Source: Mesorhizobium sp.
GTDB lineage: Bacteria > Pseudomonadota > Alphaproteobacteria > Rhizobiales > Rhizobiaceae
Assembly (NCBI RefSeq): GCF_016793485.1
Contig: NZ_JAEULZ010000001.1
Span: forward strand, 372,001 to 436,000
Length of the DNA: 64,000 nt
Direction of reading: 5' to 3'
This document shows positions 5,050 through 53,723 of this stretch, piece after piece. Both the position numbers and the translations under genes were made by a program. Numbering within the stretch: the stretch's first letter is position 1; each line of letters begins with the position of its first letter. Under the pieces are notes generated by a model. It searched no databases, was not told the DNA's origin, and saw only the letters and a list, made by a program, of their open reading frames with translations.

Positions 5050-5124
5050 GAATTGGCCTGCAAGCGCGTGGTTGCTGAACGCGGAAGCGGATTCGGGTGG
5101 GAGTAAAGGGGAAGGTGGAGGTTT

Positions 5125-5430: not shown

Positions 5431-5580
5431 GCTCCCAATATAGGGAGCCGCCGAACCAATTGAAAGCGCAAAACGGCGGCGTTCATCTGATGGCGCTGCG
5501 TGATCCGCTGCGTCGACGCGCCCCCTTGTGTTTCGGCCTATCGCCCTTCATGTGGGAAAGAAATTTTAACGAGGTGAAAC

Positions 5581-39106: not shown

Positions 39107-39233
39107 TGCGCGTCCATATGATTTCGATATTGCTACGCGCCGACACACGTATTCCTACACTGAACTTGTGCCCCCCGGCGGTGATTACAAGTTAAATTTC
39201 GCTCATGTTCGATTTTTGGCAGGTGGCAAGCCC

Positions 39234-40142: not shown

Positions 40143-40191
40143 CGAGCGATGGAGAGGACGTAATCCAAAGCTCAATGCCTCCGAGATTGGT

Positions 40192-40401
40192 TCAGCGTCG
40201 CTTTGCCCAGATCGCCCAGATGATCGCTCCGACCATTGCGCCCATCGGTGCGAAGTAGAAGGCCACGCCTTTGACAAAGGCCGTATCGACCGGCGTGCTG
40301 TCGAGCATGTAAGTTGCCGCCACTGCGAGAGCCATCGCCGTGGCCGCGCCGAAGACGACGCCAAAAATCAGCCCCAAGATCAGTCGGTTGGACTTGGACA
40401 T
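40192..40401 (-). CDS. small membrane protein, unknown
   Basis: A 69-residue protein with two membrane helices (LILGLIFGVVFGAATAMALAVAATYML and AFYFAPMGAMVGAIIWAIWA) and a basic end AKRR. The ATG reading MSKSNRLILG has AGGGAAA before it; a longer start is possible nine codons upstream. It is convergent with phzF. No family assignment can be made with confidence. Confidence 0.6.
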   Translation of the reverse strand: MSKSNRLILGLIFGVVFGAATAMALAVAATYMLDSTPVDTAFVKGVAFYFAPMGAMVGAIIWAIWAKRR

Positions 40402-40558
40402 CGGTTTTCCCTGAGCTTGTCCGCTCATTTTTCGAACGAAATGGGTGCGGCTATTTCGTTGACAGTTTTGCTTACGTCAACTCCAGAACCTGAAAATTCG
40501 GCTGTGTAGTTACAATAGATCGACCGGACACTGACGCCTGCAACGGTTTGTACGTTTG

Positions 40559-41509
40559 CTACAACGGTGGCGGCGGTGCGGAAATCTGTCCTTTGTTCGC
40601 TTGCTTTTCGATCTGGTGAACCAAGGATCTGAATTTCATCGCCGCCGGAGAAAGGCTCCGCCCGCGCCGCCAGATGAACCCATAGTTCAGAACCAGCCAG
40701 GGCTGTTCCAATGGCAGCGCCGTCAGGTTCAGTTCTTCACCGTCACGATCAAGCAACACTTTGGGGAGCGCCGAAAGCGCATCGCTGTGGCGTACGATAT
40801 GCTTGAGGCCTGTTACCGTTTCTACGCGTAGTCGTGGCGATCCATGCCCGGTGATTGGGTCGACCACGCCATATGGCTTCTGCTCTCTTGGAAGGAGCGC
40901 CTGGGCTGCGTTCGGTATATGGACGCCGGCCCACGGAAACTCGAAGATATCCTCCAGCGTTACCTGTTCCAATCGCGTCAGCGGGTGCCCCGATCGGCAG
41001 ACAACCAGAAGCGCGCATTTCCTGACAAGCGCCGTTTCAAGCTCGGGATGCTTGGCCGCCTCCGTTATGTCGGCGAAACCGAGGTCGCAACGCGCCGTCA
41101 GCACGTCCTCGAGCACGGCCGGCCAATCCTTGACGCTGAATTCACACAGGATCGAGGGATGTGCGCGAGAAAGAAGCCCCACCGCCTCCTGGCCGGAAAT
41201 CTCCGCAGGATAAGACCCCGCACTGAGAATCAGGCGTCCGCTGTCGATGCCCTTCGTGAGTTCAATCTCGCGGAGCAGTTCGGCAAAGGCGCCAAGTATA
41301 GCCCCACCGCGCTCAAGGACGATGTTTCCAAATACGGTCGGGGTCACAACGCCGCCGCGATCGAACAGCGGCGCGCCGAGGATGTTCTCTATGTGCCGGA
41401 TACCCTTGGTCAGGGCCGGCTGGGATATTCCAAGCGCCTCGGCAGCCTTTCCGAAGTGACGATGAGTTCCGAGCGCAACGATCAATTCGATATGACGTAT
41501 GGAGTTCAC
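40559..41509 (-). CDS. LysR-family transcriptional regulator
   Basis: A 316-residue regulator starting with GTG. The winged helix-turn-helix is at residues 4-62 (HIELIVALGTHRHFGKAAEALGISQPALTKGIRHIENILGAPLFDRG), followed by the two-lobed effector domain (SGRLILSAGSYPAEISGQEAVGLLSRAHP). It is divergent from the secreted alkyl sulfatase gene, with nested palindromes between them, and so is the likely activator of that gene in response to an alkyl sulfate or related effector. Confidence 0.92.
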   Translation of the reverse strand: MNSIRHIELIVALGTHRHFGKAAEALGISQPALTKGIRHIENILGAPLFDRGGVVTPTVFGNIVLERGGAILGAFAELLREIELTKGIDSGRLILSAGSYPAEISGQEAVGLLSRAHPSILCEFSVKDWPAVLEDVLTARCDLGFADITEAAKHPELETALVRKCALLVVCRSGHPLTRLEQVTLEDIFEFPWAGVHIPNAAQALLPREQKPYGVVDPITGHGSPRLRVETVTGLKHIVRHSDALSALPKVLLDRDGEELNLTALPLEQPWLVLNYGFIWRRGRSLSPAAMKFRSLVHQIEKQANKGQISAPPPPL

Positions 41510-41534
41510 GATAGACCCGCACTATCAAGTTATG

Positions 41535-41575
41535 ACCGTAGGTTATTAGACTTAAGTATCTCGATATACTACGGT
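41535..41575. promoter_or_regulatory. nested palindromes, candidate LysR binding region
   Basis: ACCGTAG (41535-41541) is mirrored by CTACGGT (41569-41575), and within it AGTAT-CTCGAT-ATACT (41555-41570) is a perfect inverted repeat of LysR size. The region lies 26-66 bp upstream of the lysR start and ahead of the divergent sulfatase gene. Confidence 0.55.
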
Positions 41576-41607
41576 TTCTGAAAGTTACAAAACAAACCGC
41601 CCGGACG

Positions 41608-41658
41608 ACGCGCGGCCTTCCACCCATCCGTTCCTGGGTGTGAAGACGCGCGTTTTTT
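41608..41658 (+). terminator. intrinsic terminator within the sulfatase leader (possible attenuator)
   Basis: A long hairpin has a 7-bp outer stem ACGCGCG / CGCGCGT, an inner 6-bp stem CACCCA / TGGGTG and mostly paired sequence between, followed by TTTTT. It lies 29 bp before the sulfatase ATG, on the sense strand. No upstream plus-strand gene needs a terminator here, so it should act on the sulfatase transcript itself. Confidence 0.65.
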
Positions 41659-41686
41659 GCGTCTGGCGCTTACGGGAGAACAGAGA

Positions 41687-43789
41687 ATGCTTCGGTCGAA
41701 ACTTGCGGCTTCGGGTTACATTCTGGGGTCGGTCATAGCGTTGCTTCTGGCACCTGCGGCCTTGGCCCAGGATAACCCTCTCCTCGATCCAAATGCCGCC
41801 AGCGGGGCCCATTTCCATCCGCAGGGAAAGCCGCCGTCCGCCGCCACGTTGCGGTATCGGGATGCTGTGAAGGCGGGGCTCCCGTTCGAGGATGAGCGCG
41901 ATTTCGAGGAGCACAATCGAGGCTTCCTGAAGACGCCGCCCTATACCAAGATCATGGCCGATGCCGGCAACATCGCGTGGGACATGGAAAGCTACCAGTT
42001 CCTGCTGCAGGACAAGGATTTCCCGAGCATTCATCCTTCTCTCCAACGCCAGGCCATTCTGAACATGGGCTATGGGCTCTACGAGGTCCTGCCCGGCAAG
42101 ATCTACCAGGTCCGGGGCTTCGATCTTTCCAACGTTACTTTCATCAAGGGCGAGACCGGCTGGATCGTTTTCGACCCCGCGACCACCGCGGAACCGGCTC
42201 GCGCCGCGCTCAAATTCATCAACGACATGCTGGGCGAGCGGCCCGTTACCGGCGTGGTTTATTCGCATTCGCATATCGACCACTTCGGCGGCGTGCGTGG
42301 CGTCGTCGACGAGGCTGATGTTCGCGCCGGCCGCGTGCCGATCATCGCGCCGGAAGGTTTCCTGCGTGAGGCCATCTCGGAAAACGTATTCGCCGGCAAC
42401 GCCATGAGCCGCCGGAGCCGAATTCAGTATGCGACCATTCTTGCGCGCAATCCGCATGGACATGTCGACCAGTCGATCGGCAAGAACGTGTCCGCCGGTG
42501 CGCCTGGGCTGATCGCGCCCACGATAAGCGTCGATCAGCCGTTCCAGGAGATAACGGTCGATGGCGTGAAGATGGTGTTCCAGAATACCCCCGACACCGA
42601 AGCGCCAGCCGGCATGAACACCTGGTTCCCTGACTGGAAGGCTTTCTGGGCGGGCGAGAACGTCACCGCCACCATCCATAACATCTACACGCTGCGCGGC
42701 GCTCCGGTTCGGAATGCGTTGAACTGGTCGAAGGAAATCAATTCGGCGATCTACAATTTTCCGAACATGGAAGTCCTGTTCGCTTCACATAGCTGGCCGC
42801 GATGGGGCAACGACCGCATCATGGAAGTGCTGCGTGCCCAGCGCGACCTTTACGCAAACATGAACAACCAGACGCTGCACCTTGCCAACCAGGGCGTGAC
42901 AATCAATCAGGTGCACAATGTCTACGAAGTGCCGAAGAGCCTGCAACGCCAATGGGCCGCGCGCAGCTACCACGGCGCGGTGAAGAACAACGTGCGCGCC
43001 ATCATCAACCGCTTCCTCGGCTTCTGGGATGGAAACCCTGTCAATCTCGACCCGATGTCGCCGGCCGACATCGCGCCGCTTTATGTAGAAATGATGGGAG
43101 GCGCGCAGCCCATTCTCGCCAAGGGCCGCGAACTGAACGCAGCCGGGCGCTACAGGGAGTCAGGCGAAATCCTGTCGCGCCTGGTGTTCGCCGAGCCGAC
43201 GAACCAGGAGGCGCGGCAACTGCTTGCCGACGCCTTCGAGCAGCTTGGCTACCAAAGCGAAAGCACCAGCTTCCGCAACTCCTATCTGCAACTGGCCGCG
43301 GAACTGCGCACCGGCATTGCCGAAGGCATAGTCTCCAACACCAACAGCCCCGATGTCGTTCGAGCCATGGCGACGGACCAGTGGCTCGACTTCCTCGGCA
43401 TCAGCATGGACAGCCGCAAGGCGGACGGGATGCGCTGGACCATCAATCTGGTGACGCCGGACAATGGCGAGAAATTCCTGGTCGAAATGTCGAATGCGAC
43501 GCTTACCAACATCAAGGGCTTCACCAAGCCCGATGCGGAACTGACCATCACGCTCAACCGGACGGACCTCGACCAGGTCATGGTCGGGGCCAAGAGCTTC
43601 GAGGAACTCGAGGGGGAGGGCAAGGCCAAGTTCGAGGGCGATCGTCGCCCATTCAATGAGCTGCGCTCGATCCTCACGGTCTTCACGCCCGACTTTGAGA
43701 TTTTCCCGGCGACCGCCAACGCCCGTGCCGTCCCGACCAACGTCAAGCCGTTCCAGTTTGGAGCCGACCTGATGTCGGTCACGGAATAG
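41687..43789 (+). CDS. secreted alkyl sulfatase (SdsA1-type metallo-beta-lactamase fold)
   Basis: A 700-residue exported enzyme that cleaves alkyl sulfates such as dodecyl sulfate to alcohol and sulfate. The signal peptide is SGYILGSVIALLLAPAALA (cut near residue 28). The zinc motif HxHxDH is SHSHIDHFGG with His194, His196, Asp198 and His199. A dimerisation helix region follows, and the last ~130 residues form an SCP2-like lipid-binding domain (NTNSPDVVRAMATDQWLDFLGI ... VMVGAKSFEELEGEGKAKFEGD). Length and domain order match SdsA1. Control by the divergent LysR protein and by a leader terminator is inferred. Confidence 0.93.
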   Translation: MLRSKLAASGYILGSVIALLLAPAALAQDNPLLDPNAASGAHFHPQGKPPSAATLRYRDAVKAGLPFEDERDFEEHNRGFLKTPPYTKIMADAGNIAWDMESYQFLLQDKDFPSIHPSLQRQAILNMGYGLYEVLPGKIYQVRGFDLSNVTFIKGETGWIVFDPATTAEPARAALKFINDMLGERPVTGVVYSHSHIDHFGGVRGVVDEADVRAGRVPIIAPEGFLREAISENVFAGNAMSRRSRIQYATILARNPHGHVDQSIGKNVSAGAPGLIAPTISVDQPFQEITVDGVKMVFQNTPDTEAPAGMNTWFPDWKAFWAGENVTATIHNIYTLRGAPVRNALNWSKEINSAIYNFPNMEVLFASHSWPRWGNDRIMEVLRAQRDLYANMNNQTLHLANQGVTINQVHNVYEVPKSLQRQWAARSYHGAVKNNVRAIINRFLGFWDGNPVNLDPMSPADIAPLYVEMMGGAQPILAKGRELNAAGRYRESGEILSRLVFAEPTNQEARQLLADAFEQLGYQSESTSFRNSYLQLAAELRTGIAEGIVSNTNSPDVVRAMATDQWLDFLGISMDSRKADGMRWTINLVTPDNGEKFLVEMSNATLTNIKGFTKPDAELTITLNRTDLDQVMVGAKSFEELEGEGKAKFEGDRRPFNELRSILTVFTPDFEIFPATANARAVPTNVKPFQFGADLMSVTE

Positions 43790-43820
43790 GTTTCGGAATC
43801 TGACGACCGTTCCGCTTAAA

Positions 43821-43851
43821 AAGCCCCACGCTTCTCGAAGGCGTGGGGCTT
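43821..43851 (+). terminator. strong hairpin after the sulfatase gene
   Basis: An 11-bp perfect stem AAGCCCCACGC / GCGTGGGGCTT with a 9-base loop lies 32 bp after the stop. No T run follows on the plus strand (five T would follow on the minus strand), so it may protect the 3' end or act as a weak terminator. Confidence 0.55.
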
Positions 43852-43876
43852 AGCGTCGAGAAAGCGAGGAGTTGGG

Positions 43877-44695
43877 ATGCCCGGACTTTTGAAGGCCGCC
43901 CCTTTGGCGTTTGCGATTGCGCTGCTAAACTCTGGCAATGCTGGTTCAGCGGACCTCGTTGCTGAAGCGGCGGCGTTGCCCGTGGCTCCAGATCAGGATC
44001 GATGGGTTTTCAGCATCGCACCCTATGTGTGGGGTGCGGGCTTACAGGGCGATGTCGGCCTGTTTGGACGTCAACCTGTCGATATCGACATGAGCTTCGG
44101 GGACATCTTCGACAACCTGCGCTTCGGCGGCATGGTCGTTGGCGAAGCCCACAACGGTACCTGGGGCATTCTTGCCGATGTCGTCTATGTCAAGATCGCG
44201 GTAGGCGAGACGGTCGAACGGACTGTCGCGAACGTTCCGGTTTCGCTTTCAGGAAGCGTAGAGACAAGCAGTCTTACCGGTACGGTCATGGGCCAATACC
44301 GGGTGATTGCCGAACCGACCGCGACGCTCGATCTTATGGCTGGCGCCCGGGTCTGGAGCGTCAACAACGACATCTCGCTCCGTCTATCCACCGGCGAACT
44401 GGCTGCGGAATTCAGCGGCAGCGACGGCGCCACCTGGGTTGATCCCATGGTCGGCATCAGGGGGCGCATCGACCTCAACCCGACATGGTATCTGACGGGC
44501 TGGGGCATGGTCGGTGGTTTCGGCGCCAGTTCCGACGTGAGCTGGGATGCGCTCGGGGCGGTTGGTTATCAGTGGACGGAACGCACCTCGATCGTCGGCG
44601 GCTATCGCGGACTTGGCGTCGACTACGAGAACGACGGCTTTGTCTACGATGTCATCCAGTCCGGGCCGGTGCTGGGTGCCGTCTTCCGGTTCTAA
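43877..44695 (+). CDS. outer-membrane beta-barrel protein
   Basis: A 272-residue protein with a signal peptide (LLKAAPLAFAIALLNSGNAGSA) and a series of amphipathic strands with alternating residues (WVFSIAPYVWGAGLQGDVGLFG, GGMVVGEAHNGTWGILADVVYVKI, WYLTGWGMVGGFGASSDVSWDALGAVGYQW). It ends GAVFRF, the terminal Phe signature recognised by the Bam machinery. It resembles uncharacterised outer-membrane proteins of about this size; a porin-like or protective role is possible, not shown. It stands 87 bp after the sulfatase gene and may not be co-transcribed because of the hairpin between. Confidence 0.75.
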   Translation: MPGLLKAAPLAFAIALLNSGNAGSADLVAEAAALPVAPDQDRWVFSIAPYVWGAGLQGDVGLFGRQPVDIDMSFGDIFDNLRFGGMVVGEAHNGTWGILADVVYVKIAVGETVERTVANVPVSLSGSVETSSLTGTVMGQYRVIAEPTATLDLMAGARVWSVNNDISLRLSTGELAAEFSGSDGATWVDPMVGIRGRIDLNPTWYLTGWGMVGGFGASSDVSWDALGAVGYQWTERTSIVGGYRGLGVDYENDGFVYDVIQSGPVLGAVFRF

Positions 44696-44738
44696 CGCCT
44701 TTTTCGCAGGACGCTGACGGAGTTTCCGTCATCAGGCG

Positions 44739-44768
44739 TGATCCAAGTAGAGGGGGCCAGCGTAACAT
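44739..44768 (+). promoter_or_regulatory. ECF (RpoE/ChrR-type) promoter of DUF2147-phrB
   Basis: TGATCC, 18 bases, TAACAT. This has the -35 hexamer and spacing of the three other sites in this block and of the RpoE promoters known from Rhodobacter. The -10 box ends 15 bases before the DUF2147 ATG. Confidence 0.75.
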
Positions 44769-44783
44769 CGTCGACTGGAGACG

Positions 44784-45164
44784 ATGTCCATGCGCGGAAT
44801 TCTGGTGTCGGTTATTGCTTGGTCTTTCGCTTGCAGTGCCGCTTCGGCGAACGAGATCGCCATCCAGGGCAAATGGAGGCGCGAAGACGGCAACGCTTTG
44901 GTTCGCATCGCGCCCTGCGGCAAGAATATCTGCGCCACGAACTTATGGATCCGTGATACCAGCAATGGCGAGGAGGTTGGCGACAAGCTCGTTATGTCGC
45001 TGACGCCGGACAAGACGAACACGTATTCCGGCAATGCTTACGATCCGAAGCGCAAACTCAACTATTCGATCGTGGTGACAGCGCGAAAGGGTGGTTTGGT
45101 GACCCGTGGTTGCTTCGTTGGAAAACTGGTCTGCAAGGACGTGTCATGGACCGCGGCCAACTAG
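44784..45164 (+). CDS. DUF2147 exported protein
   Basis: A 126-residue periplasmic protein with a signal peptide (MSMRGILVSVIAWSFACSAASA) and the DUF2147 core IQGKWRREDGNALVRIAPCGKNICATNLWI, with paired cysteines at ~45 and ~50 and two more near the end (GCFVGKLVCKDVSW). The family binds hydrophobic ligands in at least one case, but function is unknown. It is preceded by an ECF promoter and followed four bases later by photolyase, so it belongs to the photo-oxidative stress regulon. Confidence 0.85.
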   Translation: MSMRGILVSVIAWSFACSAASANEIAIQGKWRREDGNALVRIAPCGKNICATNLWIRDTSNGEEVGDKLVMSLTPDKTNTYSGNAYDPKRKLNYSIVVTARKGGLVTRGCFVGKLVCKDVSWTAAN

Positions 45165-45168
45165 CAGC

Positions 45169-46608
45169 ATGAAGGACACCGCAGCGCCGATCATCGTCCT
45201 GTTCCGCAAAGACCTCAGGATTTCGGACAACAGGGCACTCGGGGCGGCGGCCGAGACCGGCCGCCCCGTAATTCCGCTCTTCATCTTCGACGAAGATAGT
45301 GCTGGCGCCAGACGGATGGGGGCAGCCAGCCGTTGGTGGCTGCACCATTCCCTTGCCGCACTGGCTACATCCCTTGAAAAGCTCGGAGGCACGCTCGTGT
45401 TTCGGGCAGGCGGAACAGAAAAGATCATCGCCGAAACGATCGAGGCGAGCGGCGCGGACGCCGTGTTCTGGAACCGGCGCTATGCGCCGCCGGATATTGC
45501 CACCGACACGGCTTTAAAGAAAAGGCTGCGGGCGGATAGGCTCGAGGCGGAAAGCTTCGACGGGTTCCTGCTGCACGAGCCATCGCTTATCACGACCCAG
45601 TCGGGCGATTTCTACAAGGTTTTCACGCCCTTCCATAAGAGGCTGGCGTCAGACCAGGAGCCACGCGACCCCGTCGATGCTCCGAAGTCGCTGATGGAAT
45701 GCAAGGCCCGGCTGAAGTCCGAAAAACTCGATGCGCTGAAGCTATTGCCGAAGCGGCCCGACTGGTCGGGAGGGCTGGCCGAACGTTGGCAACCTGGCGA
45801 GGATGGCGCTCTGGGCAGGCTCGAAACGTTCCTGGAGGAACGGCTCCACGGCTACGCGGAAAATCGCGACAGGCCTGGTCAGGACGGGACGTCGGGACTG
45901 TCACCGCATCTGGCGCATGGCGAGATCACCCCGTTCCAGATCATGGCCGCAGTCAGGCGCAGGCGCGGCGGCGACGCGGAGACCTTCCGCAAGGAAGTCG
46001 CATGGCGCGAATTCTCCTACCATCTGCTGTTTCACCGGCCAAAGCTTCACCAGGAAAGCTTCCGTCCGGAATTTGACGCCTTCGAATGGCTGAACGCGCC
46101 TTCGGCGCTGAAGGCGTGGCAGCGAGGGCGGACAGGATATCCCATCGTGGACGCCGGAATGCGCGAACTCTGGCAGACGGGATGGATGCACAATCGCGTG
46201 CGCATGATCGCTGCGTCCTTTCTGATCAAGGACCTGCTGGTAGACTGGCGCGAGGGCGAGGCTTGGTTCTGGGACACGCTGGTGGATGCGGATGTCGCAA
46301 ACAATCCGGCGAGCTGGCAATGGGTGGCAGGGTCGGGCGCCGACGCAGCGCCCTATTTCCGCATCTTCAATCCTGTGCTGCAGGGCGAGAAGTTTGATCC
46401 CAAGGGGATTTATGTGCGGCGATACCTGCCCGAACTCGAAAAATTGCCTGACCGCTACGTCCACCGTCCGTGGGAGGCGCCGTCCTCGATCCTGAGGGAA
46501 AGCGGACTGGAACTCGGCAAGGGTTACCCCTTGCCGATCGTCGATCATGCGCGGGCGCGGGACCGTGCAATGGCTGCATACCGGGCGACGCGCGACGGGG
46601 AAGATTGA
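45169..46608 (+). CDS. phrB: deoxyribodipyrimidine photolyase
   Basis: A 479-residue FAD enzyme that uses blue light to reverse UV-induced pyrimidine dimers. The start is the ATG giving MKDTAAPIIVLFRKDLRISDNRAL, which opens the antenna domain. The FAD-binding half contains GLSPHLAHGEITPFQI (~245), KEVAWREFSYHLLFHRP and GYPIVDAGMRELWQTGWMHNRVRMIAASFLIKDLLVDWREGEAWFWDTLVDADVANN, with the conserved Trp chain. It shares an operon with DUF2147 under an ECF promoter; phrA of Rhodobacter is a core RpoE target. Its own TGA stop is part of the next ECF -35 box. Confidence 0.96.
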   Translation: MKDTAAPIIVLFRKDLRISDNRALGAAAETGRPVIPLFIFDEDSAGARRMGAASRWWLHHSLAALATSLEKLGGTLVFRAGGTEKIIAETIEASGADAVFWNRRYAPPDIATDTALKKRLRADRLEAESFDGFLLHEPSLITTQSGDFYKVFTPFHKRLASDQEPRDPVDAPKSLMECKARLKSEKLDALKLLPKRPDWSGGLAERWQPGEDGALGRLETFLEERLHGYAENRDRPGQDGTSGLSPHLAHGEITPFQIMAAVRRRRGGDAETFRKEVAWREFSYHLLFHRPKLHQESFRPEFDAFEWLNAPSALKAWQRGRTGYPIVDAGMRELWQTGWMHNRVRMIAASFLIKDLLVDWREGEAWFWDTLVDADVANNPASWQWVAGSGADAAPYFRIFNPVLQGEKFDPKGIYVRRYLPELEKLPDRYVHRPWEAPSSILRESGLELGKGYPLPIVDHARARDRAMAAYRATRDGED

Positions 46609-46635
46609 TCCAACCCGGCGCTTTGGACGTAAGGC
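46606..46635 (+). promoter_or_regulatory. ECF (RpoE/ChrR-type) promoter of the DUF2177 gene
   Basis: TGATCC, 18 bases, TAAGGC. The first three bases are the phrB stop codon. The -10 box ends 19 bases before the DUF2177 ATG. Confidence 0.72.
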
Positions 46636-46654
46636 AGATCGAGGAGACGAAACC

Positions 46655-47056
46655 ATGACCTACATAGCAGCCTACGTCGCTTCGTTGATCGTGTTCGGGG
46701 TTCTCGATGCCATATGGTTGACCACAATGACCAGCCGGCTCTACCGCCCGGCGCTTGGTGAAATGCTGCTTGGCGATTTGAGGATCGCGCCCGCCGTCGT
46801 TTTCTACCTCCTCTATCCGGTAGGACTTGTGTTCTTCGCGGCCATGCCGGCGCTGCGCAATGGATCGGCGAGCACCGCGCTGGCCTATGGCGCCTTGTTC
46901 GGCCTGATCGCCTATGCAACCTACGATCTCACCAACTACGCGACGTTGCGAAACTGGACTCTCCAGATAACGCTGATCGACCTCGCATATGGGACAGTCG
47001 TAGCCGCGTTGACCTCACTCGCGGCTTACCACGCGGCCCGGTGGTTCGCAGGGTAA
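46655..47056 (+). CDS. DUF2177 integral membrane protein
   Basis: A 133-residue protein with four membrane helices, starting MTYIAAYVASLIVFGVLDAIWLTTM behind a GGAGA site. Family features are the DAIWLTTM motif in helix 1, the LYRPALGEMLL loop, and GLIAYATYDLTNYATLRNW in helix 3. Function is unknown; members are recurrent in RpoE/ChrR-type oxidative-stress clusters, to my knowledge. It has its own ECF promoter and converges on the methyltransferase gene with a 5-bp gap. Confidence 0.87.
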   Translation: MTYIAAYVASLIVFGVLDAIWLTTMTSRLYRPALGEMLLGDLRIAPAVVFYLLYPVGLVFFAAMPALRNGSASTALAYGALFGLIAYATYDLTNYATLRNWTLQITLIDLAYGTVVAALTSLAAYHAARWFAG

Positions 47057-47061
47057 GCTCC

Positions 47062-48090
47062 TCAGCGGGACGGCGCGAGCCTGTAGTGGCTGATGCCCCA
47101 GGCTTTGCCTTGCGAATGGCCGAACAGGCCTGAGGTTGCGAGGAAGAAAAGCCGCCAGCGGCGGCGCCAAAGGCCAGCGTCCTTGCCATAGACATCGCGC
47201 AGAACGTCTTCGATCTCGTCGGCATTGGCATCGTAGTTGGCCAGCCATGCGTCGGCCGTGCGCTTGTAGTGCTCGCCGTTCCAGCGCCAATCCTCCTCGA
47301 CGGTGAAACTTTCCGGAAATGCGTTCATGAGCCCGTGGCTCGGCATAAGCCCGCCGGTGAAGAAGTGCTGCGCGATCCAGTCCGCGGGATCTTCATGATC
47401 AAACCGATAGGGAGACGAAACATGGCTGAAAACATGGATGAACGCGCGTCCATCGGGCACCAGCCAGCCCCTCATGCGCGCGAGCAGCAAGCGCCAGTTC
47501 GCCATATGCTCGAACATCTCTACCGAGACGACGCGGTCGAAGGTTGCGTCAGTCGAGAAGTCGTTCATGTCCGCTGTCGCGACAGTGAGGTTGGCGAGGC
47601 CGCGCCTGGCTGCCTCCGCCATGATGAACGCCCGCTGCGAATGCGAGTTGGACACGGACATGATCCGCGCATTGGGCAATTTTTCGGCCATCCAAAGCGA
47701 TAGAGAACCCCAGCCGCAGCCGAGTTCGAGGATCGTCTGCCCGTCGCGCAGATCGGCGTGTTCGACGGTTTGCGCCAGCGCATGAGCCTCGGCCTCGGCA
47801 AGGGTCGTCGTGGCGGACGGGAAGAAACAGCTGGAATATTTGCGATGTGGGCCCAGGACGAGGGCGAAGAAGCGCTCGGGAAGCTCGTAGTGCTGTGCGT
47901 TGGCGTCGACGGTATGGATAGCGACCGGATAGTCATCCATCGAGGCGGCGAAACGGGTGACCGCCTCGAGTGGCGCTGCGGAGAGTTTGCGATCCGTCCG
48001 CGCGACGAGAAGGCCAATCGCCGTGCGCAGAACCGGGTCCGGCCAGGAAATCGCTTCACCGAACTGCGTGGCGCGCCCGATCAGTCCCAT
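47062..48090 (-). CDS. CFA-synthase-like SAM-dependent methyltransferase
   Basis: A 342-residue methyltransferase related to cyclopropane-fatty-acid synthase (COG2230) but shorter and without its N-terminal lipid-binding domain pattern. The SAM motif ILELGCGWGSLSLWMAEKLP is at ~120-139, followed by VSVEMFEHMANWRLLLARM and the acidic HHxD-like region FTGGLMPSHGLM. It is the last gene of the minus-strand operon rpoE - chrR - DUF1295 - this gene. In Rhodobacter such a methylase in the RpoE regulon methylates unsaturated fatty acyl chains; that role here is inference. Confidence 0.85.
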   Translation of the reverse strand: MGLIGRATQFGEAISWPDPVLRTAIGLLVARTDRKLSAAPLEAVTRFAASMDDYPVAIHTVDANAQHYELPERFFALVLGPHRKYSSCFFPSATTTLAEAEAHALAQTVEHADLRDGQTILELGCGWGSLSLWMAEKLPNARIMSVSNSHSQRAFIMAEAARRGLANLTVATADMNDFSTDATFDRVVSVEMFEHMANWRLLLARMRGWLVPDGRAFIHVFSHVSSPYRFDHEDPADWIAQHFFTGGLMPSHGLMNAFPESFTVEEDWRWNGEHYKRTADAWLANYDANADEIEDVLRDVYGKDAGLWRRRWRLFFLATSGLFGHSQGKAWGISHYRLAPSR

Positions 48091-48102
48091 GGTTCATCCT
48101 CG

Positions 48103-48894
48103 TCAGGAGTTTAGCGGCAAGGGGAAGAAGGCGCTGGTCCGCGCCTGGTAGGAGCGATAGGCGTCGCCGCGAGTGGCCAGCATGTGCTGTTCCAGTGGCG
48201 GGATCCCTGAAACATAGACCAGCAGCCAGTACATGCAGGCCGGCGCGGCCAGCGCAATCCATCCCCACTGCCACGCGCCGATCGCCAGCAATGGGTAGGC
48301 TATCCAGCCCAGCCATTCGAAAAAGTAGTTCGGATGCCGAGACCAGCGCCAAAGGCCGACATCGCAAACCTTGCCGCGATTGGACGGATTGCTGGCGAAG
48401 CTACGGAGTTGGCTGTCGGCAATAGCCTCACCGGCCACTGCAACGATCATCACCAGCAATGCCAGCCAGTCCTGTACACGCAGCGCAGGCTCGGGGTTTG
48501 CGGCGGCCAGCACCATGGCGAGCCCAAGCGGAATGCTGACCAGCGCCTGCTTCTGCAACAAAATGAACATCTGTCGCGGTGCATCGGCACCCCAGCCCTT
48601 CAGCAGGGCGGCGTAGCGTGGATCGTCGGCAATTCCGCGCGTACGCTGCGCAATGTGGAGCCCAAGCCGCAGCGCCCACACCGCAGAGAAGGCGGCAACC
48701 ATAGCGCGCCGCGAGGCAAGCGCGTCCGAGCCGGCCGGAGCCAACACCGCTCCTGTTAGCCCGACTGCACCGACGCTGAATGTCCAGACCGTATCCACCC
48801 AACCGGAATTCCCCGTCCGCCGCCAGGCAACCCATGCCAGCGACATGCCGGCGCACAACGCCAGCGCGACGACCAAGAGGGTGACCAGGAACAT
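48103..48894 (-). CDS. DUF1295 membrane protein (steroid 5-alpha-reductase-like)
   Basis: A 263-residue protein with about seven membrane helices, from the ATG giving MFLVTLLVVALALCAGMSLAW. The C-terminal signature VGLWRWSRHPNYFFEWLGWIAYPLLA followed by a late Tyr/Arg motif (RGDAYRSYQARTSAFFPL) is that of the DUF1295/isoprenylcysteine methyltransferase/5-alpha-reductase superfamily, which reduce or methylate lipid-like substrates using NADPH or SAM. It lies between the anti-sigma gene and the methyltransferase gene with small gaps, so it is probably part of the same lipid-modifying unit. Confidence 0.87.
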   Translation of the reverse strand: MFLVTLLVVALALCAGMSLAWVAWRRTGNSGWVDTVWTFSVGAVGLTGAVLAPAGSDALASRRAMVAAFSAVWALRLGLHIAQRTRGIADDPRYAALLKGWGADAPRQMFILLQKQALVSIPLGLAMVLAAANPEPALRVQDWLALLVMIVAVAGEAIADSQLRSFASNPSNRGKVCDVGLWRWSRHPNYFFEWLGWIAYPLLAIGAWQWGWIALAAPACMYWLLVYVSGIPPLEQHMLATRGDAYRSYQARTSAFFPLPLNS

Positions 48895-48920
48895 GGTAAC
48901 GGTCAAAGCCCAGCGCTCCG

Positions 48921-49541
48921 TCAAAGCCTGATCAAAGGCTGGATAAGACGACCAAGCCTGCTTTGCAGCCGGATGTTGCCCTGTAGCGCGACGATGCAGA
49001 CGCACGGCGCGCCGGCGCTGACCGTCGGACTGTGCTCCATCGTCTCGTCAGCCTCGTCGAAATCGCCAGGCCCAAAGCGACCGAACTCATGCTCGAACGC
49101 GCCTTCCAGCACGCAGGTCCATTCGTAGCCGGCATGCTTGTGATGCGGAAGCTTCGTTCCGGGAGCAGCCCTGAGCATGAACACTTTGATGTCGCCAGTC
49201 TCGGGGACCGAGACGGAGCGCTGCCGAACCCCAGGTCCGACCCAGCGCCACGGGCCAAGCTCGTAGGCGGCCAAGGGGGCGCTCTCGTCATGTACTACCC
49301 CAATCTCCGCGCTGCCAATCGAGCGCAAGGCGTTCTCGAGGGCGCCTGGCTTCAGCGCCACGTCCGGCGCCTGCTCCAGCAGTTCACCACCGATCGCCTC
49401 GTACCGCGCAACGCCGCCGGAGCAGGCCGCGCAACGGGAAAGATGCATCGCCACGATCAGACTGCGTGCCTCGTCCAGCGTGCCCGCAGCATAGGCCGCA
49501 AGAGTCTCGTCCGTCGGGTGATGTGTAATCTTGTTCGTCAT
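48921..49541 (-). CDS. chrR: ChrR-type zinc-binding anti-sigma factor
   Basis: A 206-residue protein. The N-terminal anti-sigma domain has the zinc ligands of ChrR: His7/8 and the H-x3-C-x2-C motif HLSRCAAC (His33, Cys37, Cys40). The C-terminal cupin domain (KVFMLRAAPGTKLPHHKHAGYEWTCVLEGAFEHEFGRFGPGDF, ~118-160) carries the His/His/Glu cluster needed for the singlet-oxygen response in Rhodobacter. It overlaps the sigma-factor gene by four bases. Singlet oxygen or organic peroxide would trigger its breakdown and free RpoE. Confidence 0.93.
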   Translation of the reverse strand: MTNKITHHPTDETLAAYAAGTLDEARSLIVAMHLSRCAACSGGVARYEAIGGELLEQAPDVALKPGALENALRSIGSAEIGVVHDESAPLAAYELGPWRWVGPGVRQRSVSVPETGDIKVFMLRAAPGTKLPHHKHAGYEWTCVLEGAFEHEFGRFGPGDFDEADETMEHSPTVSAGAPCVCIVALQGNIRLQSRLGRLIQPLIRL

Positions 49542-50089
49542 CTCAGGTCACCAAGTGGATCGCGAAGCCGCTGCAGGGCGAGCCTGATCCGCGACTTGAC
49601 GGTACCGAGCGGAATGCCAAGCAACTCGGCTATTTCGGAATGCGCCAGACCGTCAAAGAAAGAGAGCCTGATGACGCGCAACTGCTCCTCAGGGAGCTTC
49701 GCGAGCGTCGACCTGACAATGTTTTCCCTCTCCGCGATCAGCAGGTGCTGTTCCGGTTCGTCGTAGTCCTCCTCTTCCGGCAAACCCTGTTCGTTCAGCC
49801 ACGCCGCTGCGCGGACATCACGTCTTCCCATATCGACGCTGACATTCCGCGCTATCGCATAGACCCAGGCGGAGCCGCTGGCGCGACCTGGCTCGAATTG
49901 AGCAGCCTTGCGCCAGAGCCGCAGGAGCGTTTCCTGCGCAAGATCTTCCGCGCGGTCGGCGCTGGCGCCCCTTCGCATCATCATGGCCTTCACTCGCGGC
50001 GCGTAGTGCTGGAAAAGCTCCGCAAACGCGGTACGGTCCTGTGCTACCGCGATCCTGTTGATCAGCCGGGCTGGATCGAATTCCACCAT
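49538..50089 (-). CDS. rpoE: ECF sigma factor RpoE (ChrR-controlled, ECF11-like)
   Basis: A 183-residue sigma factor from the ATG reading MVEFDPARLINRI; a start 20 codons upstream is possible. Region 2 contains FAELFQHYAPRVKAMMMRRGASADRAEDLAQETLLRLWRKA (~20-60), region 4 is LPEEQLRVIRLSFFDGLAHSEIAELLGIPLGTVKSRIRLALQRLR (~130-175). The sequence is close to the singlet-oxygen RpoE of Rhodobacter. It is transcribed first in a four-gene operon from its own TGATCC promoter, so it is autoregulated, and three other promoters of the same type lie nearby. Confidence 0.93.
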   Translation of the reverse strand: MVEFDPARLINRIAVAQDRTAFAELFQHYAPRVKAMMMRRGASADRAEDLAQETLLRLWRKAAQFEPGRASGSAWVYAIARNVSVDMGRRDVRAAAWLNEQGLPEEEDYDEPEQHLLIAERENIVRSTLAKLPEEQLRVIRLSFFDGLAHSEIAELLGIPLGTVKSRIRLALQRLRDPLGDLR

Positions 50090-50167
50090 CGCTTTGCAGT
50101 ATACGTTCAAGCGTGCTCCAGCTGGCAAGAGAGCTTCGCAAGACTCCATCCATCGGCCACTTCGACC

Positions 50168-50197
50168 TGATTACGCACGGCATCGCTATTCGGATCA
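50168..50197 (-). promoter_or_regulatory. ECF promoter of rpoE-chrR operon
   Basis: On the minus strand, TGATCC (50197-50192), 18 bases, TAATCA (50173-50168). Its -35 box is one arm of the perfect palindrome CGGATCACCGGTGATCCG (50191-50208); the other arm is the -35 box of the divergent promoter. Confidence 0.75.
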
Positions 50198-50201
50198 CCG
50201 G

Positions 50202-50231
50202 TGATCCGAGCGTGCTCCGGCCACGTATTCC
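50202..50231 (+). promoter_or_regulatory. ECF promoter of the flavin oxidase-DUF1365-cfa operon
   Basis: TGATCC, 18 bases, TATTCC, about 50 bp upstream of the flavin oxidase start. It is back to back with the rpoE promoter; the centres of the two -35 boxes are only 10 bp apart, so two RNA polymerases could not bind at once. Confidence 0.7.
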
Positions 50232-50283
50232 TCGCTGAAGGCGGCAACTTCGCCGCACCGCCGCCTCTGGCCAGGGAACAAGC

Positions 50284-51642
50284 ATGCAGCCGCACGAAGC
50301 AAGGAAGCGCATAGCCGTCGTCGGCGCAGGGATTTCGGGCCTTTCGGCGGCCTGGTTGCTGGGGAAAAGACATGACGTCGTGCTCTACGAGCGCGATGGG
50401 CGGCCCGGCGGCCATGCCAACACTGTAATGGCTCCGAGCGAGAATGGCCCGGTGCCAATCGACACGGGTTTCATCGTCTACAACGAGGCGACCTATCCCA
50501 ACCTGGTTGCGCTTTTCGACCATCTTGGCGTTGCGACCAAGACATCGGACATGTCGTTCGCCGTGTCGCGCGACGGCGGACGACTGGAATATTCGGGTGC
50601 AGGTCTTGGAGGACTGTTCGCGCAGAAGCGCAACATGGCCAATCCGCGCTTCTGGTCGATGCTGCGCGACCTCGTGCGCTTCTATCGCTCCGCCGCTGCC
50701 GACTTGGCGCAACTGCCAGCATCCCATACGCTGGGCGATTATCTCGATCGGGGCCGGTATGGCGCGGCGTTCCGCGACGATCATCTGCTGCCCATGGCTG
50801 GCGCCATATGGTCGGCTCCCTGCTCGACCATGCTCGGCTATCCGGCAAGCGCGTTCATCCGCTTTTTCCACAATCACGGGCTGTTGCTGCTCGGGGACCG
50901 GCCGCAATGGCGCACCGTCGAAGGCGGCAGCATCGCCTATGTCCGGAAGCTGACGGATACATTCTCAGGCAGCATACGGCTCGCAGCCGACATTGCCTCG
51001 ATCGTGCGGCACGACGGCCATGTGTCTGTTTTCGATCGGACGGGCAGGGAACGTTTCGACGCAGTGGTGATCGCAACTCATGCCGACCAGGCGCTTCGGC
51101 TGCTGACAGATGCATCCCCGGAGGAGCGCAGCTTGCTCGGTGCATTCGGTTACAGCAGAAACGAAGCGGTGCTGCACACGGACGACAGCGCCATGCCGCG
51201 CAGGCGCTCAGTCTGGTCGAGCTGGAACCATGTCGACGGCAAGGCCGGCGACGAGGCTGCAAGCGTTACCTACTGGATGAACCGGCTGCAGCGGATCGAG
51301 ACACCGCGTCCGCTGTTCGTGACCCTCAACCCGCGCACGCCGTTGGACGAAGCGCTGGTGCTGCGCCGGGAGACCTATCAACACCCGATCTTCGACCAAG
51401 CCGCCATGGAAGCTCAGCAGCGGCTTTGGATGCTGCAGGGTCGGCGCGGGACATGGTTCTGCGGCGCGCATTTCGGCTCCGGCTTCCACGAGGACGGCCT
51501 GCAGTCCGGGCTTGCCGTGGCGGAAGCGCTCGGCGGCGTCAAGCGACCATGGAATGTTGCGGAACAATCGTCGCGCATAACCCTTCCAGAAGGCTGGCCG
51601 ACTGTTCCTGCCCTGGAGGCCGAACGGGAGATCGCCGCGTGA
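50284..51642 (+). CDS. FAD-dependent amine-oxidase-like protein (COG2907)
   Basis: A 452-residue flavoprotein starting MQPHEARKRIAVVGAGISGLSAAWLLGKRHDVVLYERDGRPGGHANT, a complete GxGxxG site plus the GG-doublet motif. Later segments are PIDTGFIVYNEATYPNLVALFDHLGV, the mid-domain LLPMAGAIWSAP and the C-terminal FAD motif CGAHFGSGFHEDGLQSGLAVAEAL. The family is regularly fused or adjacent to DUF1365 and CFA synthase and is linked to fatty-acid desaturation or oxidation chemistry on methylated acyl chains. It overlaps DUF1365 by four bases. Confidence 0.9.
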   Translation: MQPHEARKRIAVVGAGISGLSAAWLLGKRHDVVLYERDGRPGGHANTVMAPSENGPVPIDTGFIVYNEATYPNLVALFDHLGVATKTSDMSFAVSRDGGRLEYSGAGLGGLFAQKRNMANPRFWSMLRDLVRFYRSAAADLAQLPASHTLGDYLDRGRYGAAFRDDHLLPMAGAIWSAPCSTMLGYPASAFIRFFHNHGLLLLGDRPQWRTVEGGSIAYVRKLTDTFSGSIRLAADIASIVRHDGHVSVFDRTGRERFDAVVIATHADQALRLLTDASPEERSLLGAFGYSRNEAVLHTDDSAMPRRRSVWSSWNHVDGKAGDEAASVTYWMNRLQRIETPRPLFVTLNPRTPLDEALVLRRETYQHPIFDQAAMEAQQRLWMLQGRRGTWFCGAHFGSGFHEDGLQSGLAVAEALGGVKRPWNVAEQSSRITLPEGWPTVPALEAEREIAA

Positions 51643-52418
51643 TCCGGTCGCAACTCTATTTTGGAACGGTGTCCCATCGCAGGCTGCGGCCGCGCGTGCA
51701 CGCGCTGAAATACAGGATGTTCTGGACGCTTCTGGACCTCGACGATATCCCAGACCTGCCGAAGCGGAGCGCGCTGTTTTCCTACAACCGCTTCAATGTG
51801 CTGAGTTTCCACGACGCCGACCACGGCGACGGCAGCGGCGGGGCACTTCGACCGCAGATCGAGCGGATGCTCGATGAACACGGGATCGCCTTCGATGGCG
51901 GCTCGATCCTGCTGTTCTGCATGCCGCGTGTGCTTGGCTACGGCTTCAACCCGATCAGCGTCTATTTCTGCCACCTGAGGGACGGCTCGCTCGCAGCCAT
52001 CGTCTACGAGGTGCACAACACATTCGGCGAACGGCACAGCTACGTGTTCGACGCGCATGAAAAAACACGCCCGGCCGCGCATGGCTGTGACAAGCGTTTT
52101 CATGTATCCCCGTTCATGGACATGGGAATGCACTACGAATTCAGGACATTGTTGCCGGCCGAGCGTTTCGCCCTTGCCATCCGCGGCTCGGACGCTGATG
52201 GGGCGTTGATCCATGCGTCACTCGCCTGCGCCGCCCGGTCCTTCCACACGCTCAACCTTCTGCGTGGCCTTCTCCTGTACCCGCTGCTCACCCTAAAGGT
52301 CACGGCCGCCATCCATTGGCACGCGCTGCGACTTTGGCTGAAGGGCATCCGCGTCAGGCACAAGCCGGAGCCTCCCCTCCAACCCACCACCGTGGTGTCG
52401 AGTATACCGAGGTCATGA
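51639..52418 (+). CDS. DUF1365 protein
   Basis: A 259-residue protein starting with GTG (GTGA overlap with the flavin oxidase stop) and reading VIRSQLYFGTVSHRRLRPRVHALKYRMFWTLLDLDDI. Conserved blocks are FNVLSFHDADHGDGS, FCMPRVLGYGFNPISVYFCH (~90-110), YEVHNTFGERHSYVF and KRFHVSPFMDMGMHYEF. The function is unknown, but it is always found with this flavin oxidase and a CFA-type methyltransferase, so a role in modifying membrane acyl chains is likely. It overlaps cfa by four bases. Confidence 0.9.
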   Translation: MIRSQLYFGTVSHRRLRPRVHALKYRMFWTLLDLDDIPDLPKRSALFSYNRFNVLSFHDADHGDGSGGALRPQIERMLDEHGIAFDGGSILLFCMPRVLGYGFNPISVYFCHLRDGSLAAIVYEVHNTFGERHSYVFDAHEKTRPAAHGCDKRFHVSPFMDMGMHYEFRTLLPAERFALAIRGSDADGALIHASLACAARSFHTLNLLRGLLLYPLLTLKVTAAIHWHALRLWLKGIRVRHKPEPPLQPTTVVSSIPRS

Positions 52419-53641
52419 CAGGCAAGTACGAAATCACCGGCGTCGACGGCTTTGCGGTCAAGTCTCCCGGCATCATGGCGAAGATGGCGTCGCGCCTTGT
52501 GCCGCCGCTGGTCGCCGGCCGGGTTGTGATCGAACTGCCATCCGGCGAAAGAATCGAGCGGCGCGGCGCGGCGCCCGGGCCTGATGTCTTGGTCAGCATC
52601 CACCGGTCGCGGGCGTTCCTTCGACTTGCGCTCGGCGGTGACGTCGCCTTCGCCTCGTCCTATCTGGATGGCGACTGGTCGACGCCGGACCTGCTCAGGC
52701 TGTTCGAGTTGGTGATGTTGAACGAATCCGTGTTTCGGCAGTCGCAAAAGCCGGCTCTCCCGATGCGGCTTCTGGCCGTGCTTCGCCATGGCGCGCACAG
52801 GAACACGCGGCGGGGAAGCCGACGCAACATCGCCGAGCACTATGACTTGGGCAATGATTTCTATCGTCCCTGGCTGGACGAAGGCATGAGTTACTCGGCC
52901 GCGACCTTTGCCGGGAAGGAGACCCTCGAGGAAGCGCAGCGCAACAAGATCGCCCGCGTGGCCGAGCTCCTGCAGATCGAGGGGGGTGAGCGAGTCCTGG
53001 AGATTGGCTGCGGCTGGGGCGCGCTGGCCGAGGGGCTGGTGCGGGGACGGGGCTGCCATGTAACGGGCATCACCCTTTCGGAAGAACAGTGCGCCTATTC
53101 CCGTGATCGCATGCGGCAGGAGATCGAGGAAGGAAAGGCGGAGATCAGGCTCCAGGACTATCGCGACGTCGTCGGCCGGTTCGAGCGCATCGTTTCGATC
53201 GAAATGTTCGAAGCGGTTGGTCAAGCGTACTGGACCACTTATTTCCGGGCGCTCAAGGAGCGACTTGCGGAAGGCGGCACCGCAGTTCTCCAGGTCATCA
53301 CGATCGCTGAGGACCGCTTTGACCAGTATCGGCGCACGCCGGACTTTATCCAGCGCTACATTTTTCCTGGTGGAATGCTGCCGACGAAAAATCATCTTCA
53401 CGACCTGGCGACGCGGGTCGGACTGCGGATTTCCGACGAGGTTTCGTTCGGCGGCAGTTACGCAAAGACACTCGCCGAATGGAGAGCCCGATTCCTGAAT
53501 GCGTGGCCCCGCCTGCAGACGATCGGTTTCGACGACCGCTTTCGGCGAATGTGGGATTACTACCTTGCATATTGCGAGGCTGGGTTCCTCGCAGGCGCCA
53601 CGGATGTGGTTTTGATCAAGTTAAAACACGAGCCAGCTTAG
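52415..53641 (+). CDS. cfa: cyclopropane-fatty-acyl-phospholipid synthase
   Basis: A 408-residue SAM-dependent enzyme that adds a methylene bridge to, or methylates, unsaturated acyl chains of phospholipids. The start ATG overlaps the DUF1365 stop. The N-terminal lipid-binding domain (~20-120, GDVAFASSYLDGDWSTPDLLRLFELV) precedes AEHYDLGNDFYRPWLDEGMSYSAATF and the SAM motif VLEIGCGWGALAEGLVRGRGCHVTGITLS (~190-218), then SIEMFEAVGQAYWTTYF and the bicarbonate-site region FIQRYIFPGGMLPT. It is the second CFA-family enzyme of the cluster and the last gene of an ECF-driven operon. Confidence 0.93.
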   Translation: MTGKYEITGVDGFAVKSPGIMAKMASRLVPPLVAGRVVIELPSGERIERRGAAPGPDVLVSIHRSRAFLRLALGGDVAFASSYLDGDWSTPDLLRLFELVMLNESVFRQSQKPALPMRLLAVLRHGAHRNTRRGSRRNIAEHYDLGNDFYRPWLDEGMSYSAATFAGKETLEEAQRNKIARVAELLQIEGGERVLEIGCGWGALAEGLVRGRGCHVTGITLSEEQCAYSRDRMRQEIEEGKAEIRLQDYRDVVGRFERIVSIEMFEAVGQAYWTTYFRALKERLAEGGTAVLQVITIAEDRFDQYRRTPDFIQRYIFPGGMLPTKNHLHDLATRVGLRISDEVSFGGSYAKTLAEWRARFLNAWPRLQTIGFDDRFRRMWDYYLAYCEAGFLAGATDVVLIKLKHEPA

Positions 53642-53647
53642 CAATTC

Positions 53648-53723
<76 letters not shown>

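Follow-up and report, generated by a model that had tools for sequence, protein, structure and literature searches.

The 64,000-nt stretch of Mesorhizobium sp. DNA analyzed here (the window; positions 372,001 to 436,000 of contig NZ_JAEULZ010000001.1) contains, at positions 44739 to 53641, a block of genes that is probably a regulon of the extracytoplasmic function (ECF) sigma factor RpoE and its anti-sigma factor ChrR, of the ECF11 type. Its main product would be a methylated, and probably dimethylated, furan fatty acid carried in phospholipids, together with a photolyase for DNA repair. This assignment, which is made with good confidence, rests on sequence, motif conservation, gene order, co-occurrence, and fold similarity, with the release of ChrR and the chemistry of the Ufa and FufM enzymes taken from other bacteria. 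The RpoE-ChrR switch and the furan pathway have been described before. The novelty, judged by searches of an open-licence library, lies in the link of the DUF1295, DUF2177, and DUF2147 families with genes for furan fatty acids and with promoters of the RpoE type.

In the proposed mechanism, ChrR would hold RpoE until singlet oxygen or an organic peroxide leads to the loss of ChrR, and the freed RpoE would fire promoters of the form TGATCC-N16-CGTA in front of rpoE, ufaD, DUF2147-phr, and DUF2177. UfaM would methylate vaccenoyl chains, UfaD would desaturate them, and UfaO would insert O2 and close the furan ring; FufM would then add a second methyl group to the furan fatty acid. Reaction of the furan with singlet oxygen would both scavenge the oxidant and feed back on ChrR turnover, and the phr photolyase would serve DNA repair within the same regulon.

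The first-pass annotation of this DNA had recognized an RpoE-ChrR pair, and our comparisons agree that, judged by its sequence, the pair is of the ECF11 type. A PDB search placed Rhodobacter sphaeroides RpoE (2q1z, E = 5.6e-36) as the closest solved relative of the sigma factor, with the next match at 1.6e-19. The alignments to many rpoE homologues begin only near residue 25, so the true start may be a later ATG. ChrR, for which the whole genome gave one match, passes the NCBIfam model TIGR02451 (189 bits, cut-off 124.5), stays below the cut-off of NF051881 (221 versus 300 bits), and matches the structure of R. sphaeroides ChrR (2z2s) with E = 4e-35. Alignment to 2z2s showed H8, H33, C37, and C40 at the positions that we take to be the zinc ligands of the N-terminal domain, and H134, H136, E140, and H170 at the ligand positions of the cupin-like domain. 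The latter domain of R. sphaeroides ChrR presumably has two further ligands beyond Glu147 and His177. Available passages of a review name Glu147 and His177 as needed, define a core regulon of rpoE-chrR and the furan synthesis genes, and report that furan synthesis is needed for ChrR turnover (PMC6852236).

Four promoters of the form TGATCC-N18-TA had been proposed to cover all transcription units of the block. A pattern scan of the window found all four where they had been placed (Table 1), with a spacing of exactly 18 bases and in the stricter form TGATCC-N16-CGTA, and a site stands before every predicted unit. The last A of CGTA lies 19 bases from the listed start codon of DUF2147, 23 from that of DUF2177, 22 from that of rpoE, and 56 from that of ufaD. 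The only other match in the window (12626, minus strand) is within an open reading frame (ORF) of 295 aa. Shuffled sequences led to an expectation of 0.58 matches compared with the five observed, and none of 100 shuffles gave five. The genome-wide search that the first-pass annotation had suggested for defining the full regulon covered 5.21 Mb in 52 contigs and returned 70 matches. The bare TGATCC-N18-TA pattern was rejected as a regulon finder because it is too loose, being unspecific on its own; the search did yield 13 sites ending in CGTA, four of which are those of the block. The nine CGTA-ending sites outside the block were inspected, and the other 57 matches were left aside. At the density found outside the block, the Poisson probability of four or more sites within 8.9 kb is about 6e-6 for TGATCC-N18-TA and about 2e-9 for the CGTA form. 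A spacing control (TGATCC-N6..26-CGTA) gave 123 genome matches over 21 spacings, among which N16 was over-represented, with 13 matches compared with an average of 5.5 for the remaining 20 spacings (Poisson P = 0.004). The available passages on Shewanella RpoE2 promoters describe the same TGATCC...CGTA elements, the starts of rpoE2 and pgpD having been mapped; those on Vibrio promoters of the same sigma family give TGATC-N16-18-CGTAW.

The site before rpoE-chrR-DUF1295-fufM suggests autoregulation. A gap of 4 bases separates its -35 element from that of the divergent ufaD site, and the two make up a 16-base palindrome, GGATCACCGGTGATCC (window 50192-50207); at this distance, two polymerases could hardly be bound together. 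The gap between the divergent sites varies among relatives, from 8 bases in one locus (L064) to 42 in another (L087). The first bases of the DUF2177 site overlap the stop codon of phr, and two related loci with the order DUF2147-phr-DUF2177 (L102, L109) have a single site, in front; in the block these three genes may thus form one operon, with the DUF2177 site as a promoter inside it.

Conservation of the motif was followed in related loci, which were fetched with an alignment of 18 FufM-like proteins. The best 80 of at least 578 loci were used, 37 of which have a chrR match. Upstream regions of 340 nt were scanned for the strict motif, and genes matching only after residue 45 or running off the contig were dropped. 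The motif was found before ufaD in 23 of 35 loci with chrR versus 0 of 27 without, before DUF2177 in 9/29 versus 0/29, and before DUF2147 in 4/14 versus 0/8. Taken together, 36 of 78 starts of these three genes carry it in chrR loci, compared with none of 64 in loci lacking chrR, and random stretches contain it at 0.83%. Of 36 rpoE genes in chrR loci, 30 also have the motif upstream. The corresponding count in loci without chrR (0/11) was dropped as a control because the genes there encode other ECF sigma factors; identity of the rpoE-like genes is 28-34% in these loci versus 40-82% in those with chrR. Operon-internal genes of chrR loci had no motif (ufaO 0/34, ufaM 0/28, chrR 0/36, DUF1295 0/35, phr 0/3). 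It was found before fufM in one of 37 chrR loci (L171, where fufM-DUF1295 stands apart from rpoE-chrR) and before DUF1295 in two of 32 loci without chrR (L145, L176); all three may be relocated DUF1295-fufM units that retain an RpoE-type promoter. The earlier suggestion that DUF2147 and DUF2177 are regulon members is thus supported by footprinting, in part of the relatives only.

The first-pass annotation had also placed the whole response in one 9-kb block. This was not supported, as two genes elsewhere carry the strict motif. On contig 18, a strict site stands 25 bases before the start of folE, the gene for GTP cyclohydrolase I; folE of Rhizobium sp. AC27/96 (L175), in a locus shared with fufM and phr, also has one. 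The second gene, on contig 38, encodes a MASE7-like membrane protein, and 9 bases separate its likely ATG from a strict motif upstream. Its product is 45% identical to the homologue in one related locus (L104), which scores above the Pfam cut-off for MASE7; the score of the host protein is below it. Genes of this kind occur in 32 of the 80 related loci, directly after fufM in 25, and none of the 32 is preceded by the strict motif. Further strict sites lie before a lipase-like gene (L094), a DUF779 gene (L096, with poor flanks), and mucR (L098). Those at window position 12626 and in L091, L092, and L097 were set aside, being within long ORFs.

Several observations weigh against the regulon as described. 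The related loci share kinship, so the counts above are not independent events. Within 300 nt, the strict motif is missing in chrR loci from 20 of 29 DUF2177, 10 of 14 DUF2147, 12 of 35 ufaD, and 6 of 36 rpoE genes, and for DUF2177 this is explained only in L102 and L109, where the gene lies behind phr and DUF2147. Flanking bases were scored with a matrix trained on 66 sites of relatives (training mean 5.2, standard deviation 3.0). The DUF2177 (-2.7), MASE7-like (-1.6), and ufaD (0.1) sites scored little or no better than sites within ORFs (window 12626, -1.6; L097, -1.1), and the matrix is only partly discriminating, as it ranked the first two no higher than the ORF-internal sites. A scan of the loci around the two best rpoH matches gave no strict motif. 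The ordinary flanks of some block sites, the 70 genome matches of the loose pattern, and the location of four of the nine outside CGTA-ending sites within long ORFs would fit an explanation in which the four motifs arose by chance or serve another ECF sigma factor. A site in the CGTA form before every unit, and a motif confined at the target starts to loci with chrR, make that explanation extremely improbable.

The flavin oxidase-DUF1365-cfa genes and the second methyltransferase of the block correspond in order and family to ufaD-ufaO-ufaM and fufM, a correspondence that had gone unnoticed in the first-pass annotation. The order of the first three is that of R. palustris RPA2571 (ufaD), RPA2570 (ufaO), and RPA2569 (ufaM). 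In the passages available of a study of these genes, vaccenoyl chains receive a methyl group from UfaM and are desaturated by UfaD, UfaO (DUF1365) introduces O2 into the ring, and FufM (RPA0924), which is 26% identical to UfaM, makes the dimethyl furan; RPA0923 was also deleted and appears there only in the strain and plasmid tables (PMC7380195). Over 233 aa, the FufM candidate of the block and the UfaM of the same window share 28% identity. Rhodopseudomonas sp. B29 (L172) and Bradyrhizobium BTAi1 (L178) each have a DUF1295-fufM pair away from their ufa genes. Such separate pairs fit RPA0923-RPA0924, and we infer that RPA0923 is a DUF1295 protein. Both methyltransferases match CMAS, and in NCBIfam each comes closest to models of cyclopropane synthases, though without reaching a cut-off. 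The same RpoE-ChrR regulon might therefore make cyclopropane fatty acids, with DUF1365 and the flavin oxidase altering another lipid. This is unlikely, as the scores (260 and 139 bits) are far under the equivalog cut-off of 400, and the three-gene order with DUF1365 matches a furan operon whose function was tested.

Two other gene groups were observed beside furan genes in the related loci. Nine loci without chrR (L101, L114, L122, L125, L140, L143, L150, L151, L156) have furan genes near an ECF-like gene and a gene for an RskA-type anti-sigma factor, an assignment made by Pfam on L101 and by clustering on the other eight. The maps of these nine loci contain no TGATCC-N16-CGTA, and the pair is possibly a second switch over furan genes. 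An alpha/beta hydrolase of the BD-FAE type, assigned by Pfam on L104 (8326-9189) and by clustering elsewhere, stands beside furan genes in 18 of the 80 loci and is possibly a further lipid enzyme of the cluster.

The DUF1295 gene adjoins fufM on the same strand in 67 of the 80 loci. Co-occurrence was examined in 49 genomes of the host's order, 24 with a FufM-like match (54-66% identity; three only partial: G045, G194, G246) and 25 without, drawn from the same families where possible. Strong DUF1295 matches were found in 27 of the 38 genomes with DUF1365 and in none of the 11 without; among the 38, they occur in 21 of the 22 that have FufM and 6 of the 16 that lack it. A Foldseek search with the predicted model placed a delta(14)-sterol reductase first (4quv; probability 1.00, E = 8e-3, TM 0.52), followed by the steroid 5-alpha-reductase SRD5A2 (7bw1, probability 0.99), AtTam46 (8xku_G), isoprenylcysteine methyltransferase (ICMT; 5vg9), PbSRD5A (7c83, probability 0.96), and a second ICMT (4a2n); no match reached E <= 0.001. 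A profile of the family ranked 7c83 first (E = 3.4e-4), before AtTam46 (3.6e-3), ICMT (0.033), and SRD5A2 (0.048). D160 and N189 are present in 62 of 62 family sequences and E193 in 56 of 62, and these residues align to D, N, and E of 7c83 and 7bw1, which presumably hold NADPH in SRD5A2. DUF1295 thus weakly resembles the sterol and steroid reductases.

Singlet oxygen converts furan fatty acids to dioxoenes. The same class of product arises when radicals oxidize these lipids, according to the passages available of two papers (PMC12595405, PMC2914009). Because reductases of this kind act on enones, and a dioxoene is one, we propose that DUF1295 might reduce an enone lipid with NADPH; the dioxoene of a spent furan fatty acid would be the most likely substrate. 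Against this proposal, the fold matches are weak (best E = 8e-3, TM near 0.5) and include methyltransferases, and a single-sequence PDB search gave the archaeal ICMT 4a2n first (E = 2.4e-4). DUF1295 also has no evident part in synthesis, as 9M5 was made with plasmid-borne ufaM, ufaD, and ufaO, and 9D5 with plasmid-borne fufM, in R. sphaeroides delta-chrR (passages of PMC7380195). DUF1295 may instead be a methyltransferase of the ICMT kind, dependent on S-adenosylmethionine (SAM), that modifies a lipid or prenyl group beside FufM and reduces nothing. An NCBIfam isoprenylcysteine methyltransferase model (E = 5e-7, below cut-off) and the rank of 5vg9 above PbSRD5A would agree with this. We consider it a less probable alternative that nonetheless carries some weight: the family profile reverses the order of reductase and ICMT, the two top Foldseek proteins are reductases, and 4a2n lacks N and E at the aligned positions, its alignment stopping short of D.

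For DUF2177, Foldseek gave no meaningful relative, and a profile search of solved proteins gave no match. In the 49 genomes, DUF2177 occurs in 36 of 38 with DUF1365 and in none of 11 without, compared with 22 of the 24 FufM genomes and 14 of the 25 lacking FufM; its presence thus tracks the ufa core more closely than FufM. A phylum-wide sample of 299 genomes, after three weak partial DUF2177 matches (G187, G209, G443) were dropped, had DUF1365 in 46 of 53 genomes with DUF2177 versus 82 of 246 without; seven genomes have DUF2177 and no DUF1365. DUF2177 directly follows chrR in G471. We infer that DUF2177 may be a membrane partner of the UfaDOM core. A genome of the host's genus (G495) has neither a DUF2177 nor a DUF1365 match, while both are found in G471, from another genus of the family; the distribution of the block within the family is thus patchy. 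DUF2147 occurs in 22 of the 80 related loci, 14 with chrR and 8 without; its N-terminus, judged by eye, is hydrophobic, so the protein is perhaps exported. The phr protein scores below the NCBIfam equivalog cut-offs.

A parallel exists in the green alga Chlamydomonas. Available passages list CFA1, CFA2, DUF1365, DUF1295, and DUF2177 among the singlet-oxygen genes that depend on SAK1 (PMC4067076). Log2 induction in wild type and sak1, respectively, was 5.92 and 1.16 for CFA1, 4.05 and 0.18 for CFA2, 3.50 and 0.40 for DUF1365, 3.25 and 0.08 for DUF2177, and 3.04 and -0.16 for DUF1295 (Table 5 of that paper). The algal DUF1295 gene is Cre09.g401701 and the DUF1365 gene Cre06.g269300. The SAK1 table is long, and many of its entries have no counterpart in this block. 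The parallel of CFA with R. sphaeroides and furan fatty acids has been noted in passages of a review (PMC8491031), and Arabidopsis UFAMD1, UFAO1, and FUFM1/LIME1 are named in passages of another paper (PMC10940516), which also supply the UniProt accessions of FufM (Q6NBA4), UfaD (Q3IYV7), UfaO (Q3IYV8), and UfaM (Q3J4I7). Within the open-licence library searched, where DUF2177 is named in 3 papers and DUF1295 in 14, nothing in print was found that ties DUF1295 or DUF2177 to furan lipids; the two are named together only in PMC4067076, where "furan fatty acid" does not occur.

Very tentatively, and with low confidence, DUF1295 and DUF2177 might form an aftercare module for furan fatty acids common to bacteria and green algae, placed under two unrelated switches, RpoE-ChrR and SAK1. 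DUF1295 would reduce the dioxoene with NADPH, and the saturated 1,4-diketone would be detoxified or closed again to a furan. If so, the membrane would hold a renewable quencher of singlet oxygen. That the two proteins are operon passengers with no role in furan lipids is rather improbable. In favour of it, eleven of the 38 DUF1365 genomes lack a strong DUF1295 and two lack DUF2177, phylum-wide 82 of 128 DUF1365 genomes have no DUF2177, and the functions of both proteins are predicted only. Against this stand the absence of DUF2177 from all genomes of the order sample that lack DUF1365, the adjacency of DUF1295 to FufM even where the pair stands apart, and the induction of the same families in Chlamydomonas. 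If the tie of these families to furan lipids is right, it names likely missing partners of a singlet-oxygen defence that is known in bacteria and has been suggested for algae and plants, and how a cell handles the reactive product of its own lipid scavenger becomes a testable question.

In the window, phzF and tRNA-Lys (53648-53723) are separated by a LysR gene, an alkyl sulfatase gene, a gene for an unclassified protein, and the entire block, the region spanning 39231-53723. The alkyl sulfatase (41690-43789) has a metallo-beta-lactamase fold and adjoins the protein at 43877-44695, which has no Pfam match. In G495 (L219) and in G517, the closest of the best 80 relatives (L220), phzF is directly beside tRNA-Lys; the G517 block sits on a different contig. 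A search of the window for an integration scar, in the form of a direct repeat (14 bases or longer) of the end of tRNA-Lys, found none. A tmRNA gene is present at 5108-5446, with the tag ANDNYAEARLAA.

Table 1. Predicted genes and promoters of the block, in window coordinates
Feature	Position	Strand	Basis
RpoE-type promoter before DUF2147-phr	44739..44764	+	pattern scan; same motif in relatives' DUF2147 upstreams
DUF2147 protein, 126 aa	44784..45164	+	PF09917 E 2e-12
phr, DNA photolyase family	45169..46608	+	PF03441 E 5e-91; PF00875 E 8e-48
RpoE-type promoter before DUF2177	46606..46631	+	pattern scan; relatives' DUF2177 upstreams; weak flanks
DUF2177 membrane protein, four predicted helices	46655..47056	+	PF09945 E 8.5e-43; model pLDDT (predicted local distance difference test) 96
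FufM candidate, methyltransferase of furan fatty acids	47062..48090	-	CMAS PF02353 E 4e-40; DUF1295 neighbour
DUF1295 membrane protein, sterol/steroid reductase-like fold (weak match)	48112..48894	-	PF06966 E 4e-66; AlphaFold2 pLDDT 95
chrR, zinc anti-sigma factor with cupin domain	48921..49541	-	TIGR02451; 2z2s
rpoE, ECF11-type sigma factor	49538..50149	-	best PDB match R. sphaeroides RpoE 2q1z
RpoE-type promoter before rpoE-chrR-DUF1295-fufM	50172..50197	-	pattern scan; relatives' rpoE upstreams
RpoE-type promoter before ufaD-ufaO-ufaM	50202..50227	+	pattern scan; relatives' ufaD upstreams
ufaD candidate, flavin fatty-acyl desaturase	50284..51642	+	PF01593 E 2e-20; order as RPA2571-2570-2569
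ufaO candidate, DUF1365, furan-forming oxygenase	51639..52418	+	PF07103 E 1.4e-81; UfaO holds DUF1365
ufaM candidate, SAM-dependent fatty-acyl methylase, CFA family	52415..53641	+	PF02353 E 1e-80; third in ufa order

The block resembles the RpoE-ChrR (ECF11) regulon of R. sphaeroides in its sigma/anti-sigma pair, zinc ligands, promoter motif, furan genes, and autoregulation site. It differs in that fufM and DUF1295 follow chrR in one operon, that ufaM directly follows ufaO (in R. sphaeroides, ufaM, RSP2144, is away from RSP1091-1090), and that DUF2177 and DUF2147 have sites of their own; at rpoH, a target in the R. sphaeroides cascade according to passages of PMC6852236, the scan of the two best matches gave no strict motif. 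The ufaD-ufaO-ufaM order is shared with the furan pathway of R. palustris, and the adjacency of the FufM candidate to DUF1295 with Rhodopseudomonas sp. B29. In R. palustris, however, fufM (RPA0924) is far from RPA2569-2571, whereas here all these genes are gathered in one block with RpoE-type promoters. DUF1295 is like steroid 5-alpha-reductase and delta(14)-sterol reductase in its membrane fold, by a weak match, and in the aligned D, N, and E residues, and unlike them in being distant in sequence and having no steroid context. The SAK1 genes of Chlamydomonas reinhardtii come under a eukaryotic regulator, and furan fatty acids do not figure in the available passages on them, yet the CFA, DUF1365, DUF1295, and DUF2177 families of the block are all induced there.

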